A stretch of DNA of 64,000 bases. It comes from Butyrivibrio sp. MC2013. GTDB lineage: Bacteria; Bacillota; Clostridia; Lachnospirales; Lachnospiraceae. Both the position numbers and the translations under genes were made by a program. The stretch lies in NCBI RefSeq assembly GCF_000424585.1, contig NZ_AUKE01000006.1:62001-126000 (forward strand), written 5' to 3'. Of the stretch, positions 4,975 to 17,581 are shown piece by piece. Positions within the stretch are counted from its first letter, which is position 1; every line of letters begins with the position of its first letter. Below the pieces are notes generated by a model that saw only the letters and a program-made list of their open reading frames with translations, searched no databases and was not told where the DNA came from.

Positions 4975-5025
4975 TCTTATCCGATCAGCTGCTGCCTGCT
5001 CAGATACTGCTCATTACAGCACAGA

Positions 5026-5847
5026 TCACACTTCATACTTCTCATGGAAGATCTTGGCTCTGAGGAATCTGCTGATCTTCTTGGGCCAGTCAGTCTTCTC
5101 CATATATACATAAGGCAGTACCTTGACCTCGTCCCTGCTGATCCTGCCTGTCTCGATCTGATAATCAAGCCATACATTAAAAATGATCTCACTCACGCGT
5201 CCGCAATAACGTCCCTGGAAATGAGACATATGCCTGGTATCGATCTTCTTCTCCAGCTCAAAAAGGATATTAAAGAGCCATGTGCAGTACTCATCAAGGA
5301 GCTCTCTGTCCATGATCATCATGTTGAACATGTGGCCGCTGGTCCGACGCAGCACCCTGTCGTATGTCTCGATATATTCGGGATACATCTGTGAGATGAT
5401 ACCCCTTGCTACATAGAGATGCTCTACATAGTGAGTATGCTGATAATGTGAATACAGAGACTCTATCACATAGTGTCTCTTGCTTGGTACAAATACCCTG
5501 TACTTGCCCAGCATGGGTTCCAGCTCACGCCTTAAAAGGATCCTGCCCATGGGATTACGGGAAGAACGGTATCCGCCAAAGTATCTGCGGTAGTGGCACA
5601 GACCTATATAGTCTGCATCCAGATTCTTCCATGCCCAATAAAGTCCTGTAAGCTCGCAAAAAAGAGGGTTCTTTTCGGATATATTCTCACCCTCGTCATC
5701 TCTCTGGTAACCCAACTCCAGAGGCTGTCCTGACTTGTTCTTGTCAAGGCAGGCGCCTACATGCATGGGGATATACATGTGGCTGTGGGGCATCCAGTAT
5801 TTCTTATGTGTATTAACTATTATCCTGACTGTCTGATGCTTTTTCAT
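5026..5847 (-). CDS. DUF4422 domain protein, putative glycosyltransferase
   Basis: First gene of the surface glycan operon. The 273 residues match DUF4422, a family found in capsule and exopolysaccharide clusters and considered glycosyltransferase-like. Visible blocks are an N-terminal VRIIVNTHKKYWMP strand, NPLFCELTGLYWAWKN, and YIGLCHYRRYFGG. There is no signal peptide or membrane segment, so it is cytoplasmic. The start is supported by GAAGGA about 8 nt upstream. Its promoter (5918-5946) and a terminator-like leader hairpin (5869-5895) lie directly upstream. The donor and acceptor sugars are unknown. Confidence 0.8.
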   Translation of the reverse strand: MKKHQTVRIIVNTHKKYWMPHSHMYIPMHVGACLDKNKSGQPLELGYQRDDEGENISEKNPLFCELTGLYWAWKNLDADYIGLCHYRRYFGGYRSSRNPMGRILLRRELEPMLGKYRVFVPSKRHYVIESLYSHYQHTHYVEHLYVARGIISQMYPEYIETYDRVLRRTSGHMFNMMIMDRELLDEYCTWLFNILFELEKKIDTRHMSHFQGRYCGRVSEIIFNVWLDYQIETGRISRDEVKVLPYVYMEKTDWPKKISRFLRAKIFHEKYEV

Positions 5848-5868
5848 AATAATCCTTCGCCGGGCAGG

Positions 5869-5895
5869 AAAAAAGGTACACTACCTTAGTGTACC
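5869..5895 (-). terminator. Leader terminator/attenuator before the surface glycan operon
   Basis: On the minus strand GGTACACT, a 5-nt loop and AGTGTACC are followed by TTTTTT, a textbook intrinsic terminator, with outer CCGGG/CCCGG arms that could form a longer alternative stem. It ends about 20 nt before the DUF4422 start codon and lies downstream of the promoter at 5918-5946. It therefore sits in the 5' leader and can act as an attenuator as well as a stop for read-through from the upstream regulator gene. Confidence 0.75.
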
Positions 5896-5917
5896 CTTGT
5901 TTCCCCGGTCAAAAGAT

Positions 5918-5946
5918 AATATAGCATATTAAAAAAGCCGTGTCAT
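5918..5946 (-). promoter_or_regulatory. Sigma-A promoter of the surface glycan operon
   Basis: Reading on the minus strand: ATGACA (-35, 5946-5941), exactly 17 bp, then TATATT (-10, 5923-5918) preceded by TGC, which gives an extended -10. The predicted start near 5911 leaves a leader of about 64 nt that includes the hairpin at 5869-5895. Confidence 0.65.
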
Positions 5947-6035
5947 TATCAATTCTCATAAAAGTAAATAAAATTTGATGAAATTTTCGTGACTTTTAAC
6001 ATTCTGTGAACAAAATATGAACACGCCCTGTTTCA

Positions 6036-7277
6036 TCATTCTCCCTGCTTTAATTCGCCGGGAAGCTCTGCAAGTGATACAACAGAGTATTTAAAGTCAG
6101 CTCTGGGGCCTGCTATTTCCTTGAGCTTCTTATTGATCCTGCGGTAGATGATATCGCAGTCCTCCTGACTGGTACCAACGAGGAGGATCAGATACTGGCT
6201 GTTGGAATACTTGGTGAAGGTATCGCCCTGCCTGAGCGTCATGTGGATAGCCTCCCAAAGGGCTCCGCTCCTGGCTCTGAGCTTATCCTGATTGCGGATC
6301 ATCTTGCCCTCGTAGTCCACCAGGGTGCACAGCATCATAAATACGGAATAGCCTGTCCTGGCCATATTCCTGGAGAGGATGTGATATGCGTCTATAAAGC
6401 TGGGATAGGTGCAGTCGTAAGCTCCATCATCTGCTCTCTCTACGCTCTTTCTGTCACTCTTCATCTCCGCCTGGATCTCGTGGATCTGTCCGGGAGCATT
6501 ATCTATCTTGGAGCTCATCCTGTGGTATACATCAAGGAGCTTGTCCGGAACAGGTAGTCCCAGCTCTCCTGTATAGTAAGCAACTGTATCGTCGTACACC
6601 TTAAGAGCACTCTTATAATCACCTTTATTGATAAGGGTCTCGATCTGGCCGGCCTGCCAGTCTCCTTCAGGATATATATCAGCAGCTCTTCCGTAAACGC
6701 GGAAGGCTTCGTCATATTTCTTACGAGCAGTGAGATACTCACCCAGCCACTGGACCAGCACATTGTATTTCTTACGAAGAGCCACGCTCTCCATAATGAC
6801 CCAGGTCTCGGTTGACAGAGCAGGCAATAGCTCACCCTGATACAGATCAAAGGCTTCGGTATAATACTTGCAGCGCTCATCATCTGACTGGGCACTCTGT
6901 CCCTTTTCAAAAGCTTCTTTGAAGGCAAGGGTATCCACCCATACAGGAACAGCAGGATCTGTCACAAAGATCTTCTTCTGCTTCCTGACGTAGCCCTCTG
7001 CAGGAAGGCCTGCTGCCACCATCTGTTTGCGCATCTGATACAGGAGATTGTTGAAGCTGTTGCTGACGTTAGAAGTCTCATCGTCACCATAAAGAGAAGA
7101 TACAAGCTCATCCTTTGAGACGCCCTTATCCCCCTGAAGCCAAACGATCTGAAGTAATTGAGTAAACTTAGAGGCGTTGTTTCTGCCGGGAGTAACCTCT
7201 TTCCCATCGTATGTCAGGGAAAACTTCCCAAGCATTCTGACATATAACACCTTTTCCTGGTCTAGTGTCTGCTCCAT
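6036..7277 (-). CDS. BTAD/SARP-type transcriptional regulator with degenerate GGDEF-like C-terminus
   Basis: A 413-residue cytoplasmic protein. Residues 10-105 form a winged-helix domain like SARP/OmpR regulators (VRMLGKFSLTYDGKEV, then GVSKDELVSSLYGDD). Residues 120-260 are a bacterial transcriptional activation domain of TPR-like helices (EAFDLYQGELLPAL). The last 120 residues look like a nucleotidyl-cyclase fold in which the expected R-Y-G-G-D-E-F loop reads KYSNSQYLILL, so no catalytic residues remain. A possible extended -10, TGATATACT, lies about 45 bp upstream of the start. It lies just upstream of the surface glycan operon, on the same strand but separated by the operon's own promoter and terminator, so it may regulate that operon. 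That link is inference. Confidence 0.78.
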   Translation of the reverse strand: MEQTLDQEKVLYVRMLGKFSLTYDGKEVTPGRNNASKFTQLLQIVWLQGDKGVSKDELVSSLYGDDETSNVSNSFNNLLYQMRKQMVAAGLPAEGYVRKQKKIFVTDPAVPVWVDTLAFKEAFEKGQSAQSDDERCKYYTEAFDLYQGELLPALSTETWVIMESVALRKKYNVLVQWLGEYLTARKKYDEAFRVYGRAADIYPEGDWQAGQIETLINKGDYKSALKVYDDTVAYYTGELGLPVPDKLLDVYHRMSSKIDNAPGQIHEIQAEMKSDRKSVERADDGAYDCTYPSFIDAYHILSRNMARTGYSVFMMLCTLVDYEGKMIRNQDKLRARSGALWEAIHMTLRQGDTFTKYSNSQYLILLVGTSQEDCDIIYRRINKKLKEIAGPRADFKYSVVSLAELPGELKQGE

Positions 7278-7428
7278 ATTACCCTGTCCCCTCTGAATAA
7301 TGAATTAAATACTGTTATTAGTATATCACAAATCAAATTAAAATCATATTTATTATAATCCGTTGTGATAAATCTCAAACCGATATGATTCAAATATTTT
7401 TTCAGAAACTATAGTTATATAATTCAAA

Positions 7429-7495
7429 ATGGTCCCTCAGGAGAGAATGGCAGATAAAGGAAACTCCCTTCCCGCCCGTCCCCCTGCGGGACCAT
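7429..7495 (-). terminator. Probable terminator of the protease-cohesin operon
   Basis: ATGGTCCC at 7429-7436 pairs with GGGACCAT at 7488-7495, and inner CAGG/CCTG arms continue the stem. On the minus strand the stem is followed by TTTTGAATT. It lies 54 bp after the stop of the cohesin-Fn3 gene. The T-run is weak, so this could also be a leader structure of the regulator gene. Confidence 0.45.
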
Positions 7496-7548
7496 AGTAC
7501 GGACTGATCTGCTAAGATCAGCTCATATCACCTTCATCATATTTATGA

Positions 7549-8340
7549 TCAGAAGATCATAAACTTTCTGACTTTTACTGACTTAACATCGGAATACTCA
7601 GAGTATACTCTTGATGAGCCGCTTCCTCTGTAAGACCTTACCTTATAATAGTAGGTCTGGTTATTCCATACCAAAAGGTCCAGATAATCAGTGAAGGATG
7701 TAAGGGCCACTCTGCTGTATTTGCCATCCCCAGATGTGCTGCGATATACTTCGTAGCCGTCAGCCTCTGCATCTCTTCCCCACTGTACATCTACGCCCAG
7801 AAGTGTCTGCTTGATAGCGCTGATAGCAGGCTTTGACAGTCCGCCTACACCTACTGTAGCGATGTCTTCAAGAGTGCTGTCTGCTACAACTGTAGTATCC
7901 TCATTGCAGAGTCCAAAGATATGAGTGGCGATCACGCTGTCCCTGCGACTAAGGCCTTTCTTTACAGAGAACTTCAGGCTCACAAGTGTGCCGCTTGTCT
8001 TCTTTGCACTATCATTTACAAATGCATATGCAATTCCCTTGCCTGTGCTATCTTCGTAGTCACAGTTCAGGTCTTCCATATCAAATTTGCCGCCTACGGA
8101 CTTGCTCTTAAGAACCAGAGCTTCAGTATCATAGGTTACAGCGATCCTTCCATCACTAACAAGGGTCTTATCAAGTGTGAGCTTATAGGTCAGCTCCATC
8201 TTGTCGCCCTTTCCTCTGCTTGTAAGAGCTGTATGGACAGGTGCTGCTTCTGCTGCCATAGCTTTTACTGCAGGGAAAGCTGTGAACATGATCAGGGTTG
8301 TCAGGGCGAGGACAACCAGTCTCTTTACTGTCTTATTCAT
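7549..8340 (-). CDS. Secreted cohesin-like domain plus fibronectin type III protein
   Basis: A 263-residue exported protein. The start at 8340 is preferred over a longer frame because GAGGAG lies 8 nt upstream and the ATG falls in an 8-bp overlap with the protease stop. The first 30 or so residues are a signal peptide (MNKTVKRLVVLALTTLIMF, likely cut after A-M-A). Residues about 33-150 have the cohesin strand pattern (MELTYKLTLDKT, VTYDTEALVL, GTLVSLKFSVKKG). Residues 160-260 are an Fn3 domain (DVQWGRDAEADGYEVYRS, TYYYKVRSY). It has no sortase, SLH or lipid anchor. The adjacent protease carries a dockerin, so this protein may be its docking partner. The cohesin assignment rests on pattern, not on a search. 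Confidence 0.75.
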   Translation of the reverse strand: MNKTVKRLVVLALTTLIMFTAFPAVKAMAAEAAPVHTALTSRGKGDKMELTYKLTLDKTLVSDGRIAVTYDTEALVLKSKSVGGKFDMEDLNCDYEDSTGKGIAYAFVNDSAKKTSGTLVSLKFSVKKGLSRRDSVIATHIFGLCNEDTTVVADSTLEDIATVGVGGLSKPAISAIKQTLLGVDVQWGRDAEADGYEVYRSTSGDGKYSRVALTSFTDYLDLLVWNNQTYYYKVRSYRGSGSSRVYSEYSDVKSVKVRKFMIF

Positions 8341-11300
8341 TTGTCTCTCCTCCCACAACGTCTTCTTCGATTAAGGCATCCGCAGCTTCTGCTTCTGCCC
8401 CGTCAGCTTCCTCATCTGCTGCCTTATCATCTTCGTCTTCAAGGGCTTCTTCCTCAGAGACATCATCTGTATCCTCTTCTTCAGGCCTAGGCTCTTCTAC
8501 TACAGGTTCCTCATCATCTGCAGGAGCCTGAGTATCTATGGCTGTATCCTCATCAGTATCAACAGCTTCCTCCTCTGCTGGCTCATTATAGAAGCGGTAT
8601 ATTGAAGCATTTCCTGCATAGTCATATACATATACATAGAAGATACCTTCAGGAGCAGCTATCTCAAGCTTCTGTGCAGCTCCCTTCTTGGTCTGATTAA
8701 CAGCATATCTTCCGGTAAGAGTAAGCTCTGAGTCGCGAACCAGCACTGCAGCTGTATAGCGATTATCATAAACTGTGATATCAAAGCTGCCCTTATCATT
8801 CTTATTAGCGCCGGCGATTGCAGGGCTGGTATTGTCGATAGCTATAGGAGTAGTCATGTAGAGACCCTTACCCTTGAGAGTACTGGGATCCTCTATATCA
8901 TCATAGTAGCTGGGCACTGCTTCAAGTGTGACATCCACTTCTGTTCCATCAGGAAGAGGATTGCCATCTGCATCTGTACCTGCCCAGAAGAGATCCTGCC
9001 ACTGGAGATAATTGGTCCAGCTTCCGTCGTATACAAAGGATGCATAGTTCTCAAGCTCTTCTGTTCTAAAATACTCTTCACCTGTATTTCTGTCTGTGAT
9101 GGTAGCTATTACCCTGTTAGCATTTCTGATCAGTGTGTAGTACTGAGAGCCCAGCACTGTTCCGTTTTCAGAGCTGATGGCATTTCTGTCTGCAATGTAT
9201 TCGTCATCATCAGCATACTGATTGGGCACATAGTAGAGCTCTTCTTCATCTCCATAGAGATATACGGACAGGAAGTTGGTAGCAGAGATTCCGCAATAGG
9301 TCTCACCGTCATAATTAGGATCATGCCAGTACTGCATGAAATCAAAAGGCTCGTACATGGATGAATCCATCCAGCTGCCATAGAATGCCAGGAAAGGAAC
9401 TGACATATTAACAGCACCGTTTACATAGATATATCCATCTACATAGATACCGTTTTCAAAGCCTGCCAGGTAATCTCTGTCTGCCTGGGACAGGTTGATG
9501 TTAACCTTGATATTGGTCTTCTTCTTAACCTCAACCACTCTGAGCTTAAAGTCAGCTACGGAAGCCTTGCCCTTAAGCTGTCTGCCAAAGAGATATACGT
9601 CACGGGTGTCTACCAGTCCATCGCTGTTAAAATCAAAATAGTCTTCATTGGTAGAGATCAGTGTCAGCTCCTTTGTGCCATTTACATACTGCAGGAATAA
9701 CTTCTTATCTTTATTGTCGATCCTGCAATCATCATTAAGGTCATATACCAGACGTGTATCGCCTGCTGTCATGGTCACTTCAGGATCAAGCTTGTGAGCA
9801 GAGCCTGCAAAATATGTTGCCCAGCCTGCATCATAGAGCTCCTCTGTCATTACAGAAGAATCCAGTACATAGAACTGAGGATCCTTGCTCATGTTGTAAA
9901 TATCAAAGGAGAAGCTGTAGTTGCCGCTTCTTGAAGGATCGTCTCCCAGTGTTACCTTTACCTTACCATCGTTGCCCTGCTTATCGCCTACCAGGATATA
10001 GGAAGGGGATGTAACAGCATCATATACATTGGCAAGACCTGCACCCTGAGCCCTGGGTGAATATTCGGGAGCTTCAGGATCATTATCCTCATGAAGAGGA
10101 GTAGCAGTACTCATAAGAAGAGACTGAGCCAGACTTCTTACAGAGATCTTATTGGCCTTTGCCAGTCCATTCTCCTTGATATATTGAGATACAAGCGCTG
10201 TCTGTCCGGAGATGGAGGGAGCAGCCATGGATGTTCCGCTCATATTGCCATAAGTGCCATTGTCACGGGTGGAATAGATATTGCCGCCGGGAGCTGTGAT
10301 CTCAGGCTTGAGATCCAGAGTACCGGGAACACCCCAGGACGAGAAATCACTCATGGTATATCCATCAGAAGCATTGGAGTTGGTAGCAACCTTGCCGTAT
10401 ACAGTGACAGTACCTTCATATACGCGGTCGGAAACCTGCTCTGCTGCGTCCTCTATAGCCATACCCTCAGCAAGAGTAATGGATACAGCGGGGATCACAG
10501 CTGTGCTGCCCTGAAGAGTCATGCTGATGGTACCTGAAGTGTTGTTGTAAATTACAACAGCCTTTGCACCTGCGGCTTCTGCATTCATCTGCTTCTCACC
10601 AAAGGTGATGGCACCACGCTGTACAAATACAATCTTGTCCTCTACATCCACACCCTCATAATCAGAAGGCTCACCCTTGCCGTCGATGAGCACGAAAGGA
10701 TATTCGGTGCCGCTCTGATCTGCGGAAGTATCAAGAGTCTCGAAGTTAGGAGCTAGGGTATCATTACCTGCTGTATAGAACACTCTTACACCGCTTGCTT
10801 CAAAATAGTTACCTGTAAAACCGCTGTTAACAGCACTGGCAACAGTAAATGCATTGGTGTAGGATCCGGGTGAACCTACTGTATCCTGGTTAACATCTCC
10901 GCTGAAGTTTACGCCGTAAGTAGAATCATCTGCCCAGCGTCCTGAATTACCTGCGGAAATGGATACAACAGTGCCTGTTCCTTCCAGCTTGTCAAATATC
11001 TCATTGATATATGTCTCTGAATCAGATGAATAACCTGCTGCTGATGAACCAAGGCTCAGGTTTACCACATCTGCATTCAGGAGCAGTGCATCCTCGATAG
11101 CTGCCATGTAGTCATCGGAGTATGCGCCGCCATTTGTACCAAATACCTTCATGGTAATGAGCTGTGCATCAGGAGCAACACCTACTACTCCCTGCTCCTG
11201 AGCAGCAAAGTTTCCGTCTGCTCCGGGAACATATGCATTTGCAGTGGCGATACCGGATACGTGTGTTCCGTGATCACCCTCTTCATCATTCTCATGAGTT

Positions 11301-12241
11301 ACGTCCAGATTCCTATCTACATAGTTAAATGCAAAGGGGATCTTCTCAGACAGATAGAGATCTGATGCTGTCAGGTCACTGTCCATTGTTGTAGCGTTAA
11401 GGAGAGGCAGTACCTTGGCGATCTCCTGTGTATCCAGAAGATTGTAGCTAGCTACAGATCTGCCGGCCTTCCCTGCAGTCTCCTTAAGGTGTGCATCAAA
11501 TGCAGCGCCGTCAAAAGAAGGATGGTCTGCATCAATACCTGTATCAATGACAGCAATCCTGCTGCCTGCACCTGTGTAGCCTGCTGCCCATGTTGTATAA
11601 CCACCGATCATATCACCGGCAGTGATAGTCTGAGGCTCAGCCTCTGTCATGGGTTCATACTTCTGAGCTACATATACAGCTTTAACACCCTCTACCTCTT
11701 TGATATTCTCAATGTCCTTGTAAGCAACATCTGCTGACATGGCATTGGTAAGCAGTGTAAAGTTGTAATTTACATCCAGGGACTCGCCGTCCAGCGCTTC
11801 CTCAGATATCTTTTGGGCTTCTGCCTCCTGATCACGGGTGATATCCTCTGCCATATCTATGGCTGCATCACTTTCAGCCACATCCTCTACACTGATACCC
11901 TGATCAAGGACTGCGTCGCCCTCCATTACTATGATTACCCTGGTCTGTTCCTCTGGATCAGGCTCAGATACGGGAATCTCTGCAGTTTCACCTTGAACTG
12001 CATCGCGAGGACTTACAAGATCCTCAGCTTCGGGATCAACTTCTTCGAAGAGCACAGATCCTGTATCCTGGCCATCTTCTGAAGTCTCATCCGCCGCTTC
12101 AGCGTCAGCATCTTCTGCTATCTCATTAGCAGAGATACTATCCGAACTCTCAGGACTAGCCAGAGCCGGGATATTCTGTGCGAGCACAAGTGATGCACTC
12201 AGAATACCGGCTATGACTCTTCCCGCTGCGTGGTTCTTCAT
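8333..12241 (-). CDS. Secreted S8 (subtilisin/lactocepin-like) protease with PA insert and internal dockerin
   Basis: A 1302-residue exported serine protease. The start at 12241 (MKNHAAGRV) has GGAGGAGG about 6 nt upstream; the longer frame's three Glu codons are that ribosome binding site. A signal peptide ending near A-L-A is followed by an acidic segment and an I9-like propeptide (TRVIIVMEGDAVLDQ to KAVYVAQKYEP). The catalytic triad is visible: AVIDTGID (about 231), GDHGTHVSG (about 325) and GTSMAAPS (about 668). A protease-associated insert lies before the serine (VQRGAITFGEKQMNAEAAGA). Two canonical dockerin loops, DLNDDCRIDNKD and DFNSDGLVDTRD, lie around 832-895. The last 90 residues are a highly acidic tail without LPXTG. 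It probably degrades extracellular protein. Its gene overlaps the cohesin gene by 8 bp. Confidence 0.93.
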   Translation of the reverse strand: MKNHAAGRVIAGILSASLVLAQNIPALASPESSDSISANEIAEDADAEAADETSEDGQDTGSVLFEEVDPEAEDLVSPRDAVQGETAEIPVSEPDPEEQTRVIIVMEGDAVLDQGISVEDVAESDAAIDMAEDITRDQEAEAQKISEEALDGESLDVNYNFTLLTNAMSADVAYKDIENIKEVEGVKAVYVAQKYEPMTEAEPQTITAGDMIGGYTTWAAGYTGAGSRIAVIDTGIDADHPSFDGAAFDAHLKETAGKAGRSVASYNLLDTQEIAKVLPLLNATTMDSDLTASDLYLSEKIPFAFNYVDRNLDVTHENDEEGDHGTHVSGIATANAYVPGADGNFAAQEQGVVGVAPDAQLITMKVFGTNGGAYSDDYMAAIEDALLLNADVVNLSLGSSAAGYSSDSETYINEIFDKLEGTGTVVSISAGNSGRWADDSTYGVNFSGDVNQDTVGSPGSYTNAFTVASAVNSGFTGNYFEASGVRVFYTAGNDTLAPNFETLDTSADQSGTEYPFVLIDGKGEPSDYEGVDVEDKIVFVQRGAITFGEKQMNAEAAGAKAVVIYNNTSGTISMTLQGSTAVIPAVSITLAEGMAIEDAAEQVSDRVYEGTVTVYGKVATNSNASDGYTMSDFSSWGVPGTLDLKPEITAPGGNIYSTRDNGTYGNMSGTSMAAPSISGQTALVSQYIKENGLAKANKISVRSLAQSLLMSTATPLHEDNDPEAPEYSPRAQGAGLANVYDAVTSPSYILVGDKQGNDGKVKVTLGDDPSRSGNYSFSFDIYNMSKDPQFYVLDSSVMTEELYDAGWATYFAGSAHKLDPEVTMTAGDTRLVYDLNDDCRIDNKDKKLFLQYVNGTKELTLISTNEDYFDFNSDGLVDTRDVYLFGRQLKGKASVADFKLRVVEVKKKTNIKVNINLSQADRDYLAGFENGIYVDGYIYVNGAVNMSVPFLAFYGSWMDSSMYEPFDFMQYWHDPNYDGETYCGISATNFLSVYLYGDEEELYYVPNQYADDDEYIADRNAISSENGTVLGSQYYTLIRNANRVIATITDRNTGEEYFRTEELENYASFVYDGSWTNYLQWQDLFWAGTDADGNPLPDGTEVDVTLEAVPSYYDDIEDPSTLKGKGLYMTTPIAIDNTSPAIAGANKNDKGSFDITVYDNRYTAAVLVRDSELTLTGRYAVNQTKKGAAQKLEIAAPEGIFYVYVYDYAGNASIYRFYNEPAEEEAVDTDEDTAIDTQAPADDEEPVVEEPRPEEEDTDDVSEEEALEDEDDKAADEEADGAEAEAADALIEEDVVGGETNE

Positions 12242-12372
12242 TTCTATCTCCTCCTCCATTTTTATTTATAAACAGCACTCTCCGACTCCCTCCCGCTTAA
12301 GGCGACGCCGGCTATGCATATTTATCATCAGTTCTCAGACAATTACTATTTTGATCATTTATATTCAGTTCA

Positions 12373-13050
12373 TTACTTACTCCTTGCCTTCAAATGAAGC
12401 CCGATAAGAGCTGCAGATAATAGCAGCAGAGCTATCAGAGCAGGGATCAATACTGTAAGCGATGATGAGATAGTCCCGTAAGCATCTGCATTTGCGGTCT
12501 CTTCCATTACAGTTTGATTCTCATGATCCTTTTCTATATCCTCTGTTTCTGATATATCTGAGTTTTCACATCCTTCTGCAGTCTCAGCTGATCCTGAAGT
12601 CTCTGCAGATCCTGAAGCCTCTGCATTTTCAGACTCCACTACAGCTTCTGATATATCTGAAATCTCTGCAGTTTCTGATATAGCTGCAGTTTCCGAGCCT
12701 TCAGCAGATAGTGCTATATCCTCAGCATTCACCTTTACTCTTTGCACTTCATCAAGGGCTTCTATCCTGTCCTTAAGAGTAACATCTGCCACTACGACTA
12801 TGCCATGACCGCTCTCATCACGCCTGACTATGCTCAGATTTGCATCCTCAGAGCGTAGCGCCTCCACAGCAGAAGTGCCATCTTCCATGCTCACATCGTC
12901 CCTGAATACTATATATAGATGTAATGGATTCTCTGTAAGATCCTCCCCACCAAAGGCCGGATCACTCTTATCTATCCTGTGATCTTGCCTGTCTCCGGCC
13001 CCGTTTACAAGAGCCGCGTCATCAAGCTTTTCAAATACTATTCCCGACAT
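12373..13050 (-). CDS. Tail-anchored protein with I9-like domain, upstream of the S8 protease
   Basis: A 225-residue protein of no firmly known family. Residues 43-112 (LHLYIVFRDDVS, GIVVVADVTLKDRIEAL, VQRVKVNAEDI) show the beta-alpha-beta-beta-alpha-beta order of the peptidase inhibitor I9/subtilisin propeptide fold and resemble the propeptide of the protease encoded 131 bp downstream. Residues 113-190 are a low-complexity Ser/Glu/Ala linker. Residues 196-219 are one membrane helix followed by HLKARSK. The start has GGGGGAG upstream, but no Sec signal peptide is visible. The N-terminus (FEKLDDAALVNGAGD) loosely resembles a double-glycine leader. It may act as an intermolecular chaperone or inhibitor of the protease; this is inference. 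Confidence 0.6.
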   Translation of the reverse strand: MSGIVFEKLDDAALVNGAGDRQDHRIDKSDPAFGGEDLTENPLHLYIVFRDDVSMEDGTSAVEALRSEDANLSIVRRDESGHGIVVVADVTLKDRIEALDEVQRVKVNAEDIALSAEGSETAAISETAEISDISEAVVESENAEASGSAETSGSAETAEGCENSDISETEDIEKDHENQTVMEETANADAYGTISSSLTVLIPALIALLLLSAALIGLHLKARSK

Positions 13051-13132
13051 ATTCTCCCCCGCCAGAAGGTGTTTGATTCGTCCCTTTAAAGCTTCGATTC
13101 GTTGACGCTTTTAATCGTTAAAGCGTCATTGA

Positions 13133-13170
13133 TAAAAAAACATCCAGTTTCGCAAACAAAACTAGATGTT
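13133..13170 (-). terminator. Intrinsic terminator upstream of the I9-like gene
   Basis: On the minus strand AACATCTAGTTT pairs with AAACTGGATGTT, followed by a run of seven T. It lies 83 bp upstream of the gene starting at 13050. It either closes transcripts coming from fbp and the repeat region or acts as an attenuator in the leader of the protease unit. Confidence 0.6.
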
Positions 13171-13260
13171 GAAAGTATAAATACGATAACAAATAATGTC
13201 AATAGTTTACATTAATTTGCCAAAATATAAACACTGTTATCATAATAGCAACAGGCATAC

Positions 13261-13288
13261 AGTGCATAAACGCTAGCGTTTATGCACT
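13261..13288. repeat. Perfect 28-bp palindrome
   Basis: AGTGCATAAACGCT is followed directly by its exact reverse complement, then TTTTG on the plus strand. The stem is long enough for a cruciform or a terminator; it may alternatively be an operator. It is not repeated elsewhere in the window as far as I can see. Confidence 0.7.
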
Positions 13289-13438
13289 TTTGTCAAATTA
13301 AATATCTTTAAACTAACACAGTATATCTTTTTTTGTATAATTATACATATCGATGCTATTTACCCAATCGTATATTCACTGTAGTTTACATAATGATCGT
13401 TCAATTCCTTTTCATTAAAAATATGTATTAGCTGACGC

Positions 13439-13734
13439 AATCTATACATTCTTGGATAAATAATCCAAGAATGTATGCAAATAGGCCATTTATAAGCAGC
13501 TAAAGCTGCTGGGCCTATTTGCCAGATTCATGTTCTCACGAAACACGCAGTAAATGCGTGTTTCTGAATGGTCATCTAATAATCTATACATTCTTGGATA
13601 AATAATCCAAGAATGTATGCAAATAGGCCATTTATAAGCAGCTAAAGCTGCTGGGCCTATTTGCCAGATTCATGTTCTCACGAAACACGCAGTAAATGCG
13701 TGTTTCTGAATGGTCATCTAATAATCTATACATT
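13439..13734. repeat. 142-bp unit in direct tandem, two full copies plus 12 bp of a third
   Basis: Copy 1 spans 13439-13580 and copy 2 13581-13722. They are essentially identical, and a third copy begins at 13723 before diverging. Each unit contains three hairpins: TACATTCTTGGAT/ATCCAAGAATGTA, AAATAGGCC/GGCCTATTT with an inner GCAGC/GCTGC, and GAAACACGC/GCGTGTTTC. Single modules recur at 28617-28650 and 60599-60650, so this is a dispersed intergenic repeat family that has duplicated here. Confidence 0.9.
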
Positions 13735-13755
13735 TTTAACAAACATTCCCTGCTT

Positions 13756-15771
13756 TTATGCTCTCTCAACTATGAGGCCTGTACGGTATGCATCAAGGAG
13801 AGCTTCCAGATCCCTTATATTCTCCTTGATAGATTTTCCTATATCAGTATCTGCCACAGTCTTGCGTTTCTTGACATGCTGTACCAGTATCGTATCGGAA
13901 TGGATATCACTGCCTGTCTCCACCGCATATTCCACTGACTTAAAGGGTTCATGAGCAGCCAAAAGAAAACCATAGGAATTGTAGGTAAGTGTATAGCCCG
14001 CTATTCCTGTCTTTGGCTGGTAAGCCTTGGAAAAGCCTCCGTCTATGATGATGAGCCTTCCTCCGCACTTGACCGGAGACTCGCCCTTTCTTGATTCCAC
14101 AGGGATATGACCGTTTATGATGCGGCTCTCCTTGATATCAAGGCCAAATTCCGTGAGTATCATATCGATGGTATCGTTATTGTTGATCCACTTATAATAT
14201 GGATTCTTGGGCTCTTCATGGAGCTTTTTATCCTCAAGGAAATAGCGCTCAAAGGTAGCCATCTTGTCCTTGCCAAATACAGGAGAATTCCTGCTTATCC
14301 AGGTATACCACAAAAGGTCCATGCCCTTTTTCTTTTCTGCAGGATCTATGGCATAATAGCCCTTTCTGAGATACTGCTCCAGAGCATCATATAGAGCCTT
14401 GCCCTTATATTTCTGACCATACAGCTCCACTTCCCTAAAGCTACCGTCTTCATCAAGGGGCACGCAACCGTGATAGAGCAGGTTATTATTATAAGTCTTA
14501 TACAAGGAGCCGTTTCTATAGAGGAACTGTACATGCTCCTGGAGCTTATCGCATTTGATAAAGGCTCTTCTAAGCTGCTCTATGAGCTTCTTTTCCTTGT
14601 CAGACAAGGCGTAGGGATCCCTGGGATCGATAGTGGGAAAATTGGTATCAAGGAGCCTGTACTCAACTCCATCTATGGTGATGGTCCCCTTTTCCAGATC
14701 CATCTTATCAAGGAGGAGCCTGTCTTCCATGCCAAACTCCGGATGGTCCTGGATCAGGCGCCCTTCCAGCTTGAACTGGATCACAGAGATAGCCTTGTGC
14801 ATCTTCCTGTCTGTCATGGCATTGGTCAGATCATACTCACCTTCCCTGTAATGGAGGCTGAAACATTCACAAGGATCATCCCTGTAGGTCTCCAGGGCAA
14901 ATTTGAACAGGGGCAGAAGATTGATACCATAGCCATCTTCAAGGATATCCAGATTGCCATATCTGGCCGAGAATCTCAGCACCGTAGCTATGCAGGCCAG
15001 GTGACCTGTAGCAGCTCCCATCCATACTACATCGTGATTGCCCCATTGGATATCCACACTGTGATACTTCATCAGTATATCCATGCAGATATGAGGGCCG
15101 GGCCCTCTGTCATAGAGGTCACCTACTATATGCAGATGGTCGATTATAAAGCGGCTGATGACTTCAGACAATGCTATGATCAGCTCCGGTGCCTTTCCGA
15201 TCCTGATCACAGTATCTATGATCTCATTGTAATAGGCTTCCTGATTGCTGATATCCCGCCTGCCTGTGATCAGCTCCTCTATCACATAGGCAAAATCCGG
15301 CGGCAGCGCTTTTCTAACCTTGGACCTTGTATATTTGGAGGCCGCATTTTTGCATACATTTATCAGACGATTGATCATCACCACATACCAATCGTCCATA
15401 TTTTCACCGGATTCACAAATAAGGCGCATTCTCTCTTCAGGATAATAGATCAGGCTTGCCAGCTCTTTCTTTTCCCTCTCGGACAATAGATTGCCAAATT
15501 CCTCATCGATCTTCCTCTTGACAGCACCGGAGCCGTTCTTGAGCACATGTGCAAACTGCTCATATTCACCGTGGATATCAGAGAGAAAATGCTCTGTAGC
15601 CTTGGGAAGGCTGAGAATAGACTGGAGATTGATGATCTCCGTAGCAGTTGTAGATACATTAGGAAACTGATTGGATAAGATACGCAGGCTCTTCTCATCG
15701 ATGGCAGATCTTGCATTTTCATCAGTTCTGCCGGGCAAATGTCCCCCACTTACCTTTTTGGTCTGTGTCAT
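13756..15771 (-). CDS. fbp: Fructose-1,6-bisphosphatase, class III
   Basis: Hydrolyses fructose-1,6-bisphosphate to fructose-6-phosphate in gluconeogenesis; cytoplasmic. The 671-residue length and sequence fit the class III (Firmicute, YydE-type) enzyme, unrelated to class I/II. Metallophosphatase motifs are visible: FLSDIHGEYEQF (the D-x-H), HIVGDLYDRGPGPH (G-D-x-x-D-R-G) and IQWGNHDVVWMGAA (G-N-H-D). NGHIPVESRKGESPVKCGGR is the conserved C-terminal metal-binding block. GGAGGGG precedes the start. It is a single gene; its 3' side is the repeat region. Confidence 0.97.
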   Translation of the reverse strand: MTQTKKVSGGHLPGRTDENARSAIDEKSLRILSNQFPNVSTTATEIINLQSILSLPKATEHFLSDIHGEYEQFAHVLKNGSGAVKRKIDEEFGNLLSEREKKELASLIYYPEERMRLICESGENMDDWYVVMINRLINVCKNAASKYTRSKVRKALPPDFAYVIEELITGRRDISNQEAYYNEIIDTVIRIGKAPELIIALSEVISRFIIDHLHIVGDLYDRGPGPHICMDILMKYHSVDIQWGNHDVVWMGAATGHLACIATVLRFSARYGNLDILEDGYGINLLPLFKFALETYRDDPCECFSLHYREGEYDLTNAMTDRKMHKAISVIQFKLEGRLIQDHPEFGMEDRLLLDKMDLEKGTITIDGVEYRLLDTNFPTIDPRDPYALSDKEKKLIEQLRRAFIKCDKLQEHVQFLYRNGSLYKTYNNNLLYHGCVPLDEDGSFREVELYGQKYKGKALYDALEQYLRKGYYAIDPAEKKKGMDLLWYTWISRNSPVFGKDKMATFERYFLEDKKLHEEPKNPYYKWINNNDTIDMILTEFGLDIKESRIINGHIPVESRKGESPVKCGGRLIIIDGGFSKAYQPKTGIAGYTLTYNSYGFLLAAHEPFKSVEYAVETGSDIHSDTILVQHVKKRKTVADTDIGKSIKENIRDLEALLDAYRTGLIVERA

Positions 15772-15904
15772 TACACTCCCCTCCTTAAACGCCCCGTAAC
15801 GACAGTAAACCTTTCCCTTTATTTTTGCCTGCTTCCCTTATAAAACCATTTTAACAAAAACAGCCGGAAATGTAACTGATGTGTTCCAAAACAGCAAATT
15901 TCCT

Positions 15905-17581
15905 TTACTTTCCTGCTGTCAAAATAGCCACCGAATATGCAGGGAGCGAGAGCACGCCTCCCTTAGACGCAGCCTCCGCGCTGCCGTCCGATGCGCAGGC
16001 ACTGTCTGCAAGCTTGTAGCCTGAAGGAATCTTAATACTATCCTCTGTATCCGATATATTCAGGATGATGGCCACAGTATCATCTTCCCAGCTTCTCTTG
16101 ATGGCTGATATGCTTTCCGTACAAAGGCTATTGCCCGCATCATCTGTCAGGCGCTCTGTCATACCCCTGGCAATTGCAGGATTGGCATTACGCATGCGGA
16201 TGATATGCTTTACAAAATTATAGATAGAATCAGGATCTGCCTTTTGCTCCTCAAGGCTCTGTACTGCGTTTTCCTGCTTGTCCATACCAAAAGGTCCGCT
16301 GCAGGTCCCTTCTGCAGACTCATCAGCTGACCAGGGCATAGGACCGCGCTTATTCTCATCCTTGCCGGCGCCCCTCATACCCAGTTCTTCGCCATAGTAT
16401 ATAAAGGCATTCCCCTGCATCAAAAGGTTCATGGCTTCTGCCATCTTGGTCATAGCCACAGCGTTGTCGCCTATATAATAGCCGGAGCTCCTGGGCATAT
16501 CATGATTGGTATAAAAGGGTGCATTGATATAATCAGGATTATAGGACTGATACAGAGTCTCTGCATTGATCTGCGCCTGGACAAAATCATCTGCAGTGCC
16601 CTGCCCCCTTAGCACCTTGGCAATATTGCCATCACTTCCTCCAAAGGAGAAGTCAAAAAAGCTGTCTGCCCCCGAAGAATAAAAAGGTGCATAATCCTTT
16701 CTGCCGGTCCAGGCTTCGCCTACTATGTATGCATCAGAGCTTTTGCTCTTGACCATGTCATTAAACCAGCTAAGCTCCTCTATTATATCCTCGCTCCTGC
16801 CTGTCTCATAGGAAGTAACAGCATCAAGCCTGAAGCCGTCCACCTTGTGATCCAGCCAAAAGCTAGTGATATCATCAAACTCAGCCCTTACCTTGTCGCT
16901 CTTAAGATTCAGATCCGGCATCCCTTTCCAGAAGCGGGCTTCATAATACCATTTCGTAGCAGGCAGTCTCTCATATCCATCTGACTTTTCCCTGGTAAAA
17001 TGATAGTAATCCACATAAGGACACTCTGAAAGATCAGGCTCTTCGCCCTCCGGCAGCATCCTCAGATAGGAGGCCGCCTCTTTAAACCAGGGATGCTCCG
17101 AGGAGGAATGGTTCATGACAAAATCGATTATTACATTGATGCCCCTCTTATGAGCCTCATCAATAAATCTGTCAAAGTCTTCTATGCTGCCGTAAGCGCT
17201 GTCGATATCCTTGTAATCTGTCACATCATATTTGTGATAAGTAGGTGAGGGAGATATGGGCATGAGCCATATCTCATTACAGCCCAGATCATCATCTGTC
17301 TTATCATTGCCGTCATTTATATAGTCCAGCTTCTCCGTCAGTCCATTAAGGTCTCCTATACCATCTCCATCACTATCATAAAAAGAGTATACAAAGACCT
17401 CATAACAGGTGCGGTACTTGTCATCTATGACATTCAGGGGCTGAGCGGCCTTTGAAGCACATCCCATAAGCGCCGCCGTACATATGGCCGGGATCATAGC
17501 GGCAGCCAGTCTCTTTGTGACTCTGTCTGATATGATGCTTTTGCGGGATCTCTTGTCAGCTTCTCTTATATTTCCTATCAT
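15905..17581 (-). CDS. Secreted lipoprotein alpha-glucan hydrolase, GH13
   Basis: Alpha-amylase family enzyme acting on alpha-glucans outside the membrane. Of 558 residues, the first 40 form a basic N-region and hydrophobic core ending in the lipobox A-L-M-G-C, so it is lipid-anchored. The (beta/alpha)8 barrel carries DSDGDGIGDLNGL, IIDFVMNHSSSEHPWF, GFRLDAVTSY (nucleophile Asp about 252), VGEAWTG (acid Glu about 288) and TNHDMPRS (Asp about 361). YYGEELGMRGAG is typical of the oligo-1,6-glucosidase/maltogenic branch. GGAGG lies 8 nt before the start. It follows pulA by about 90 bp and belongs to the alpha-glucan locus. Exact bond specificity is not determined. Confidence 0.93.
   Translation of the reverse strand: MIGNIREADKRSRKSIISDRVTKRLAAAMIPAICTAALMGCASKAAQPLNVIDDKYRTCYEVFVYSFYDSDGDGIGDLNGLTEKLDYINDGNDKTDDDLGCNEIWLMPISPSPTYHKYDVTDYKDIDSAYGSIEDFDRFIDEAHKRGINVIIDFVMNHSSSEHPWFKEAASYLRMLPEGEEPDLSECPYVDYYHFTREKSDGYERLPATKWYYEARFWKGMPDLNLKSDKVRAEFDDITSFWLDHKVDGFRLDAVTSYETGRSEDIIEELSWFNDMVKSKSSDAYIVGEAWTGRKDYAPFYSSGADSFFDFSFGGSDGNIAKVLRGQGTADDFVQAQINAETLYQSYNPDYINAPFYTNHDMPRSSGYYIGDNAVAMTKMAEAMNLLMQGNAFIYYGEELGMRGAGKDENKRGPMPWSADESAEGTCSGPFGMDKQENAVQSLEEQKADPDSIYNFVKHIIRMRNANPAIARGMTERLTDDAGNSLCTESISAIKRSWEDDTVAIILNISDTEDSIKIPSGYKLADSACASDGSAEAASKGGVLSLPAYSVAILTAGK

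Follow-up and report, generated by a model that had tools for sequence, protein, structure and literature searches.

Butyrivibrio sp. MC2013 encodes, in the 64,000-nucleotide stretch analyzed here (hereafter the window; contig NZ_AUKE01000006.1), an S8 protease with an internal dockerin (8333..12259, minus strand, as are all features of the window given below) and, directly behind it, a small protein of 263 residues with a cohesin and an Fn3 module (7549..8340). The two probably constitute a dedicated dockerin-cohesin pair, outside any cellulosome, which would tether the protease at the cell surface, a reading to which we give a probability of roughly 0.6. The genomic evidence supports the pairing well, and from it, together with the domain families, we infer binding and tethering. 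Both proteins have signal-peptide-like N-termini and would be exported, the dockerin within the first Fn3-like domain of the protease would bind the cohesin in a calcium-dependent manner, as its family suggests, and the cohesin protein would then keep the protease, which has no anchor of its own, on the outside of the cell. In most Butyrivibrio this hold might be exerted by the Fn3 module and the short C-terminal tail of the cohesin protein, and elsewhere by wall-binding repeats, as in one orthologue (L035), or by a C-terminal membrane or wall anchor, as in some other genera.

Cohesin and dockerin genes are usually read as signs of a cellulosome, whereas the present pair sits outside of one. 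The genome has one Pfam dockerin, the one in this protease, instead of several dockerin-bearing carbohydrate enzymes, and no multi-cohesin scaffoldin is recognized, as Pfam finds no cohesin in the genome, although it also misses the partner protein, which itself holds a single cohesin module. The lack of a scaffold nearby, noted in the preliminary description of this DNA, thus extends to the whole genome at the level of Pfam.

A dockerin inserted in a C5a peptidase-type protease

Pfam recognizes Peptidase_S8 (E 7e-47), a PA insert and Dockerin_1 (aa 839-894) in the protease, and no NCBIfam family scores above its cut-off. The catalytic domain (aa 230-741; 10037..11572) includes the PA insert at aa 530-602 and is preceded by an I9-like propeptide of the protease itself (aa 105-205; 11645..11947), as the profile of this region matches distant proteases in which PF05922 covers the same stretch (e.g., L130, L138, and L139). 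The S8 domain with its PA insert is followed by Fn3-like domains, which is the arrangement of the C5a-peptidase/lactocepin type, and the closest solved structures are the streptococcal C5a peptidase and chemokine protease (7edd, 3eif), which share the order of S8 and Fn3-like domains. The streptococcal enzymes are anchored to the wall by an LPxTG motif, which is typical, although not universal, in the C5a-peptidase/lactocepin type. In contrast to these, the protease carries a dockerin in its first Fn3-like domain and has no LPxTG, which is found in none of 30 aligned protease rows (29 assemblies, one being split over two contigs; two rows lack the C-terminus). A C-terminal transmembrane-like stretch is likewise missing from the 28 rows that include the C-terminus, and the chain of the window ends in an acidic, probably disordered tail in which no anchor is seen (aa 1226-1308; 8336..8584).

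The dockerin module (aa 838-899; 9563..9748) is placed by Pfam, by a PDB sequence search and by a structural model. In the alignment with 7edd, the match stops at query residue 806 (chain residue 641) and is taken up again at 911 (chain residue 669) by a weak second one (1.6 bits), which leaves about 77 extra residues in the protease between the two, and it is there that the dockerin sits. Modeled with AlphaFold from 28 rows, aa 742-1226 (mean predicted local distance difference test score, pLDDT, 87.4) show the dockerin helices at model residues 108-118, 125-134, and 144-154, in a block of pLDDT 88-95 between beta strands, and this post-catalytic stretch aligns as a whole with 7edd (Z 15.1, 367 residues aligned, root-mean-square deviation (rmsd) 4.1). 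PDB dockerins are retrieved by sequence at E 0.0035 and weaker, and no dockerin chain is among the 50 best structure matches of the model, a kind of search that may overlook individual domains when models are long.

A subtilisin with two canonical dockerin calcium loops had been recognized before, and both loops are present and conserved across relatives: the pattern D-x-[DN]-x-[DN]-x6-D is kept by loop 1, DLNDDCRIDNKD (aa 840-851; 9707..9742), in 30/30 rows and by loop 2, DFNSDGLVDTRD (aa 876-887; 9599..9634), in all 29 rows that reach it, so that the loops are not a product of chance. The module has the paired calcium loops of 12 residues, set in a repeated loop-helix motif, that are expected of type I dockerins (PF00404). 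In the search of the whole genome, Dockerin_1 has its single match in the protease at 29 bits, against a cut-off of 22.9 bits, while hmmscan of the full-length protease yields 22.1 bits, just below it. What is added to the earlier account is the assignment of the protease to the C5a-peptidase/lactocepin type and the recognition of the dockerin as an internal domain insertion; in cellulosomal enzymes, the dockerin is usually located at the end of the chain.

The cohesin-Fn3 protein and its pairing with the protease

The small protein begins with a hydrophobic, signal-peptide-like region (aa 1-30; 8251..8340; pLDDT below 50), continues with the cohesin module (aa 32-165; 7846..8247) and the Fn3 module (aa 168-258; 7567..7839), the latter assigned by sequence and structure matches, and has no C-terminal transmembrane stretch. 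The window protein matches neither a Pfam nor an NCBIfam family, and PF00963 (Cohesin) has 0 matches in its genome. The previous assignment as a cohesin is supported instead by its family, 20 of the 26 members of which (the window protein counts among the 26, not among the 20) match PF00963 at E<=1 (best 7.7e-6), and by the fold; in a survey of the genus, 8 orthologues match PF00963 at E<=0.001, 5 of them above the cut-off. The AlphaFold model, which spans the cohesin and Fn3 modules together (pLDDT 84.7), shows the expected beta-sandwich, and its best PDB match in Foldseek is the cohesin-Fn3 structure 2w1n (E 1.8e-7, template modeling (TM) score 0.34/0.38, rmsd 9.5 over both modules), followed by generic Fn3 pairs from E 7e-6 and by the cohesins 3l8q and 6kgf at about 1e-4 (6kgf: E 1.1e-4, TMt 0.62). 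VIA-align ranks Fn3 domains first and aligns 4ums, a cohesin, over 136 residues (Z 11.8, rmsd 4.0). 2w1n belongs to GH84C of Clostridium perfringens, which has the same module order, but there the modules are part of a glycoside hydrolase, whereas here they form a separate protein. A sequence-profile route to the PDB cohesins with the cohesin alignment alone was abandoned, as its best matches, haemagglutinins at E 0.61, are due to chance, and a fold search was needed. Many orthologues of the cohesin protein end in a short basic-hydrophobic motif (e.g., KVKKFFGLFG as the last 10 residues), and in L035, 1 of 26 orthologues, the Fn3 half is replaced by Choline_bind_3 repeats (E 1.4e-24).

That dockerin and cohesin are partners, as had been proposed, is supported by gene adjacency and by the matching presence and absence of orthologues. 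When 145 relatives were searched with each protein, the protease matched in 23 at E<=1e-40 and the small protein in 49 at E<=0.001, mostly through the Fn3 half alone. Close protease orthologues (55-100% identity) occur in 20 of the relatives, and it is in precisely these 20 that the cohesin module is matched at E 2e-30 or better, the match being nearly full length in 19 and covering the cohesin half in G076. The remaining three protease genomes (G083, G092, and G102) have distant proteases (32-39%) and no cohesin-module match; at their five protease loci, catalytic and downstream domains are 82-116 residues apart, with neither a dockerin nor, within 1.5 kb, a cohesin. A protease without the cohesin thus does occur among the relatives, in these three, but since they also lack the dockerin insert, they leave the odds for pairing and tethering unchanged. 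The protease relatives of one scan (21) belong to Butyrivibrio, Pseudobutyrivibrio, "Lachnospiraceae bacterium" and one "Bacillota bacterium."

The two genes are adjacent and on one strand in 26/26 complete pairs, the junctions of which overlap by 8 bp in 17, by 1 bp in 4 and by 11 bp in 4, with a gap of 13 bp in 1. Counting L037 and L049, where the contig ends inside the cohesin gene, the cohesin gene lies directly downstream of the protease in 28 of 29 assemblies, and in L040 the contig ends first. Pfam finds a dockerin in 17 genomes of the genus, one in each and always inside this protease (in three further genomes with the protease it falls below the Pfam threshold), and a cohesin in nine, eight of these matches being the present partner; the exception, G077:C249:1796-2065, lies in a 713-codon frame of a genome without a Pfam dockerin. 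In G008 (L022), where the protease has no match at E<=1e-40, a short open reading frame (ORF) retains just the part of the cohesin gene that encodes the Fn3 end and is likely a remnant of gene loss.

Among the orthologues is that of Butyrivibrio proteoclasticus B316, a species whose name refers to proteolysis. It corresponds to Bpr_I2629, as the mass computed from the internal ATG is 153.31 kDa against a published 153.3, and the isoelectric point (pI) 4.05 against 3.8. Bpr_I2629 is the only S8 match in this genome (G061), has one dockerin and adjoins a cohesin gene, and G061 is not among the Pfam cohesin matches of the genus survey. In both the window and G061, a cohesin missed by Pfam thus lies directly behind the only Pfam dockerin, and in B316 this concerns the only S8 match. 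In the published record, Bpr_I2629 is a protein of 153.3 kDa and pI 3.8 in the mid-log cytosolic proteome, 5.8-fold up on xylan (PMC5217386), and B316 is stated to lack cohesin components in a paper that credits Bpr_I2629 with cell-bound activity (PMC2914790); the statement on cohesins should be revised, if the modeled fold assignment holds. No description of the protease-cohesin pair was found in the open-access literature, subscription papers lying mostly outside the search. The pair would offer a testable explanation for the cell-bound state of a protease that has no anchor, which might matter for the degradation of protein in the rumen, and a compact module for surface display uses.

Tethering and its alternatives

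Proteases docked at the surface through a cohesin have been described in cellulosome producers. Clostridium thermocellum has an S8 protease with a double dockerin, dDoc_0689, for which surface anchoring via a cohesin has been proposed (review PMC12484212); dockerin-bearing S8 proteases and the idea of anchoring one through a cohesin are hence not new. However, C. thermocellum makes cellulosomes and uses a double dockerin, whereas here one internal dockerin is matched by one dedicated neighboring cohesin, and there is no cellulosome. The single cohesin of Ruminococcus albus is also a likely surface anchor for isolated dockerin enzymes rather than a scaffold (PMC6118326), but R. albus has many dockerins, in contrast to one dockerin and one cohesin encoded by adjacent genes. 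Single-cohesin proteins with a C-terminal helix, possibly cell-associated, were described among "scaffoldin-containing" microbes, for example in Lachnoclostridium sp. MSJ-17, presumably a non-cellulolytic relative, yet for up to 39 dockerin proteins and not for a one-to-one protease pair (PMC11557425).

Other genera of the family provide variants of the pair. In 397 genomes, the protease was found in 27 at E<=1e-40 and a cohesin-profile match in 13, six being common to both. The spacing between the catalytic and downstream domains, scanned at 33 loci (the five of G083, G092, and G102 and 28 from the family-wide search, with our own profiles), is long (150-172 residues) at 11, short (77-116) at 19, 199 at one and not measurable at two, and a dockerin-like match is present at 10 of the 11 long-spacing loci (several of them weak) and at none of the 19 short ones. 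The 199-residue locus, a distant protease (L103, G372), has no dockerin match and perhaps carries another insert. In a set of 14 genes with longer flanks, nine with and five without the insert (the contig-cut L135 and the fragment L143 were left out), Pfam Dockerin_1 matches six of the nine insert-bearing genes, four above the cut-off, and a cohesin is matched by our own profile for five of these nine and for none of the five others. The cohesin is encoded by the next gene in L127 and L128, by the preceding gene in L133 and in the same chain as the protease in L126 and L132; the matches of the two cis forms and of L133 are weak (0.00058, 0.002, and 9e-5). Among the five, L127 alone has its cohesin confirmed by Pfam, as does L143 outside this set. 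In L127, L128, L133, and L143, where the cohesin is a protein of its own, it has a hydrophobic stretch at its end (mean Kyte-Doolittle hydropathy 2.1-2.4).

Several observations weigh against the tethering reading. The fold match to cohesins is not exclusive, as many Fn3 and Ig chains score alike or higher in both structure lists, and in a comparison of evolutionary distances of the mirror-tree kind (25 species, 276 usable pairs) cohesin and dockerin are correlated no more strongly than other protein segments, the partial correlations being 0.55-0.66 whichever segments were paired. An insert with no cohesin found nearby is present in L129, L130, L134, and the second gene of L132. L126 combines dockerin, weakly matched cohesin and a membrane anchor-like C-terminus of its own in one chain, so that docking is not needed for anchoring there, and in L132 the dockerin and the weakly matched cohesin are apparently also in cis. 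The recovery of Bpr_I2629 in a "cytosolic" fraction is no proof of a surface location (PMC5217386). Finally, the cohesin protein has no recognized anchor in orthologues other than L035, including those of the window and B316, and the last link of the tether is thus missing in Butyrivibrio itself. Tethering nevertheless is the most economical function, and among the roles suggested earlier, namely to tether, stabilize or inhibit the protease, it is the best supported, the other two ranking below it.

The cis forms and the internal position of the dockerin make a latch role a serious rival. In its broader version, which is tentative and on the whole doubtful, the dockerin would be a calcium-dependent latch, and binding of the cohesin would both park the enzyme on the cell and set its activity, the trans arrangement and the cis arrangement of L126 and L132 being two states of one design within a "one enzyme, one socket" display of Lachnospiraceae. 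If so, surface display would have been built from cellulosome parts without cellulosomes, into which dockerin-cohesin neighbors of GH3 enzymes in three genomes and of a wall-hydrolase-like protein in one would fit. In its narrower version, the cohesin would act as a structural clasp or activity switch, dependent on calcium and placed beside the catalytic domain, that stabilizes or gates the protease, not as an anchor. Such a clasp is favored by the place of the dockerin, which sits within the Fn3-like domain after the catalytic one and not at the chain end, and by the two single-polypeptide forms, but the hydrophobic C-terminal anchors on the separate cohesins of four other-genus loci, and the wall-binding repeats of L035, fit tethering, and we regard a pure clasp as unlikely.

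Less probable still is that the cohesin protein escorts the protease during secretion and folding or keeps it inactive during export, without localizing it. The gene overlap would suggest coupled synthesis, and an I9-like gene at some loci (see below) hints at additional control of the protease; however, the protease has a propeptide of its own, a chaperone would not need the anchors seen on the cohesins of relatives, and we know of no cohesin that acts as an inhibitor. Least probable is that the cohesin binds another target and that the two genes are mere operon neighbors: the binding is deduced from sequence, and the distance correlations are not specific to cohesin and dockerin, but the matching distribution of orthologues in the 145 genomes, the finding of no more than one Pfam dockerin in each of the 17 dockerin-bearing genomes of the genus, and the apparent cis fusions in two other genera argue against it.

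Dockerin-cohesin neighbors without this protease were seen as well. In L136, L140, and L131, a GH3 enzyme with a C-terminal dockerin is encoded beside two cohesin-like genes, one product being without an anchor and the other having a TGD motif (by eye) and a hydrophobic C-terminus. In L146 (G086), a peptidoglycan- or wall-hydrolase-like protein (by eye) has a C-terminal dockerin, and the next gene encodes a Pfam cohesin and, toward the end of the sequence covered, a hydrophobic stretch.

Cluster layout, the I9-like gene and neighboring features

The preliminary description had listed three consecutive same-strand genes, and the ORFs are confirmed on the minus strand as I9-like (13050-12373), S8 protease (12259-8333) and cohesin-Fn3 (8340-7549). 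The last two overlap by 8 bp, as described before, since the cohesin ATG lies at 8340 and the protease stop ends at 8333 (8333..8340), and a ribosome-binding-site-like GGGAGGAGAG of the cohesin gene is located within the protease gene (8345..8354). The protease ORF opens with an ATG at 12259, which runs straight into GGAGGAGGAG, so that the true start is probably the ATG at 12241.

A unit of three genes, in contrast, is not supported. Among the 28 assemblies in which DNA upstream of the protease is available, 13 have an I9-like gene by profile within 1.6 kb, and it was dropped as a core member of the cluster. The protein of the window (12373..13050) is thus an optional member; described before as a membrane protein, it has a C-terminal hydrophobic stretch, by which it would be tail-anchored, and no evident N-terminal signal peptide. 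I9-like proteins are either long with such a stretch or short without it, and a signal peptide is not evident in the rows seen. Pfam I9 (PF05922) matches none of 12 I9-like members, and a PDB search with their alignment returned nothing relevant. The I9-like profile matches 21 of 30 protease rows above the HMMER inclusion line, the top match being aa 157-212 of L038 in the propeptide region, while the window's own protease remains below that line, and hhalign of the I9-like against the protease propeptide profile gives a weak 45% probability. The protein might be a cytoplasm-facing guard against premature protease.

Upstream of the cluster, a promoter-like TTGACA-17-TATACT (13174..13202) matches at 11/12 positions but is weak, as the region has 15 such sites and shuffled sequence 11.9 on average. 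A hairpin resembling a terminator, with a T tail, follows it immediately, 5' of the I9-like ORF, and the two together (13202-13139) are possibly a leader attenuator, with the number of promoter-like sites being near the shuffle mean; Rfam has no match in 5000-16000 of the window, which includes this hairpin. Directly downstream of the cluster, a BTAD/TPR protein, possibly a regulator, is encoded at 6036-7277.

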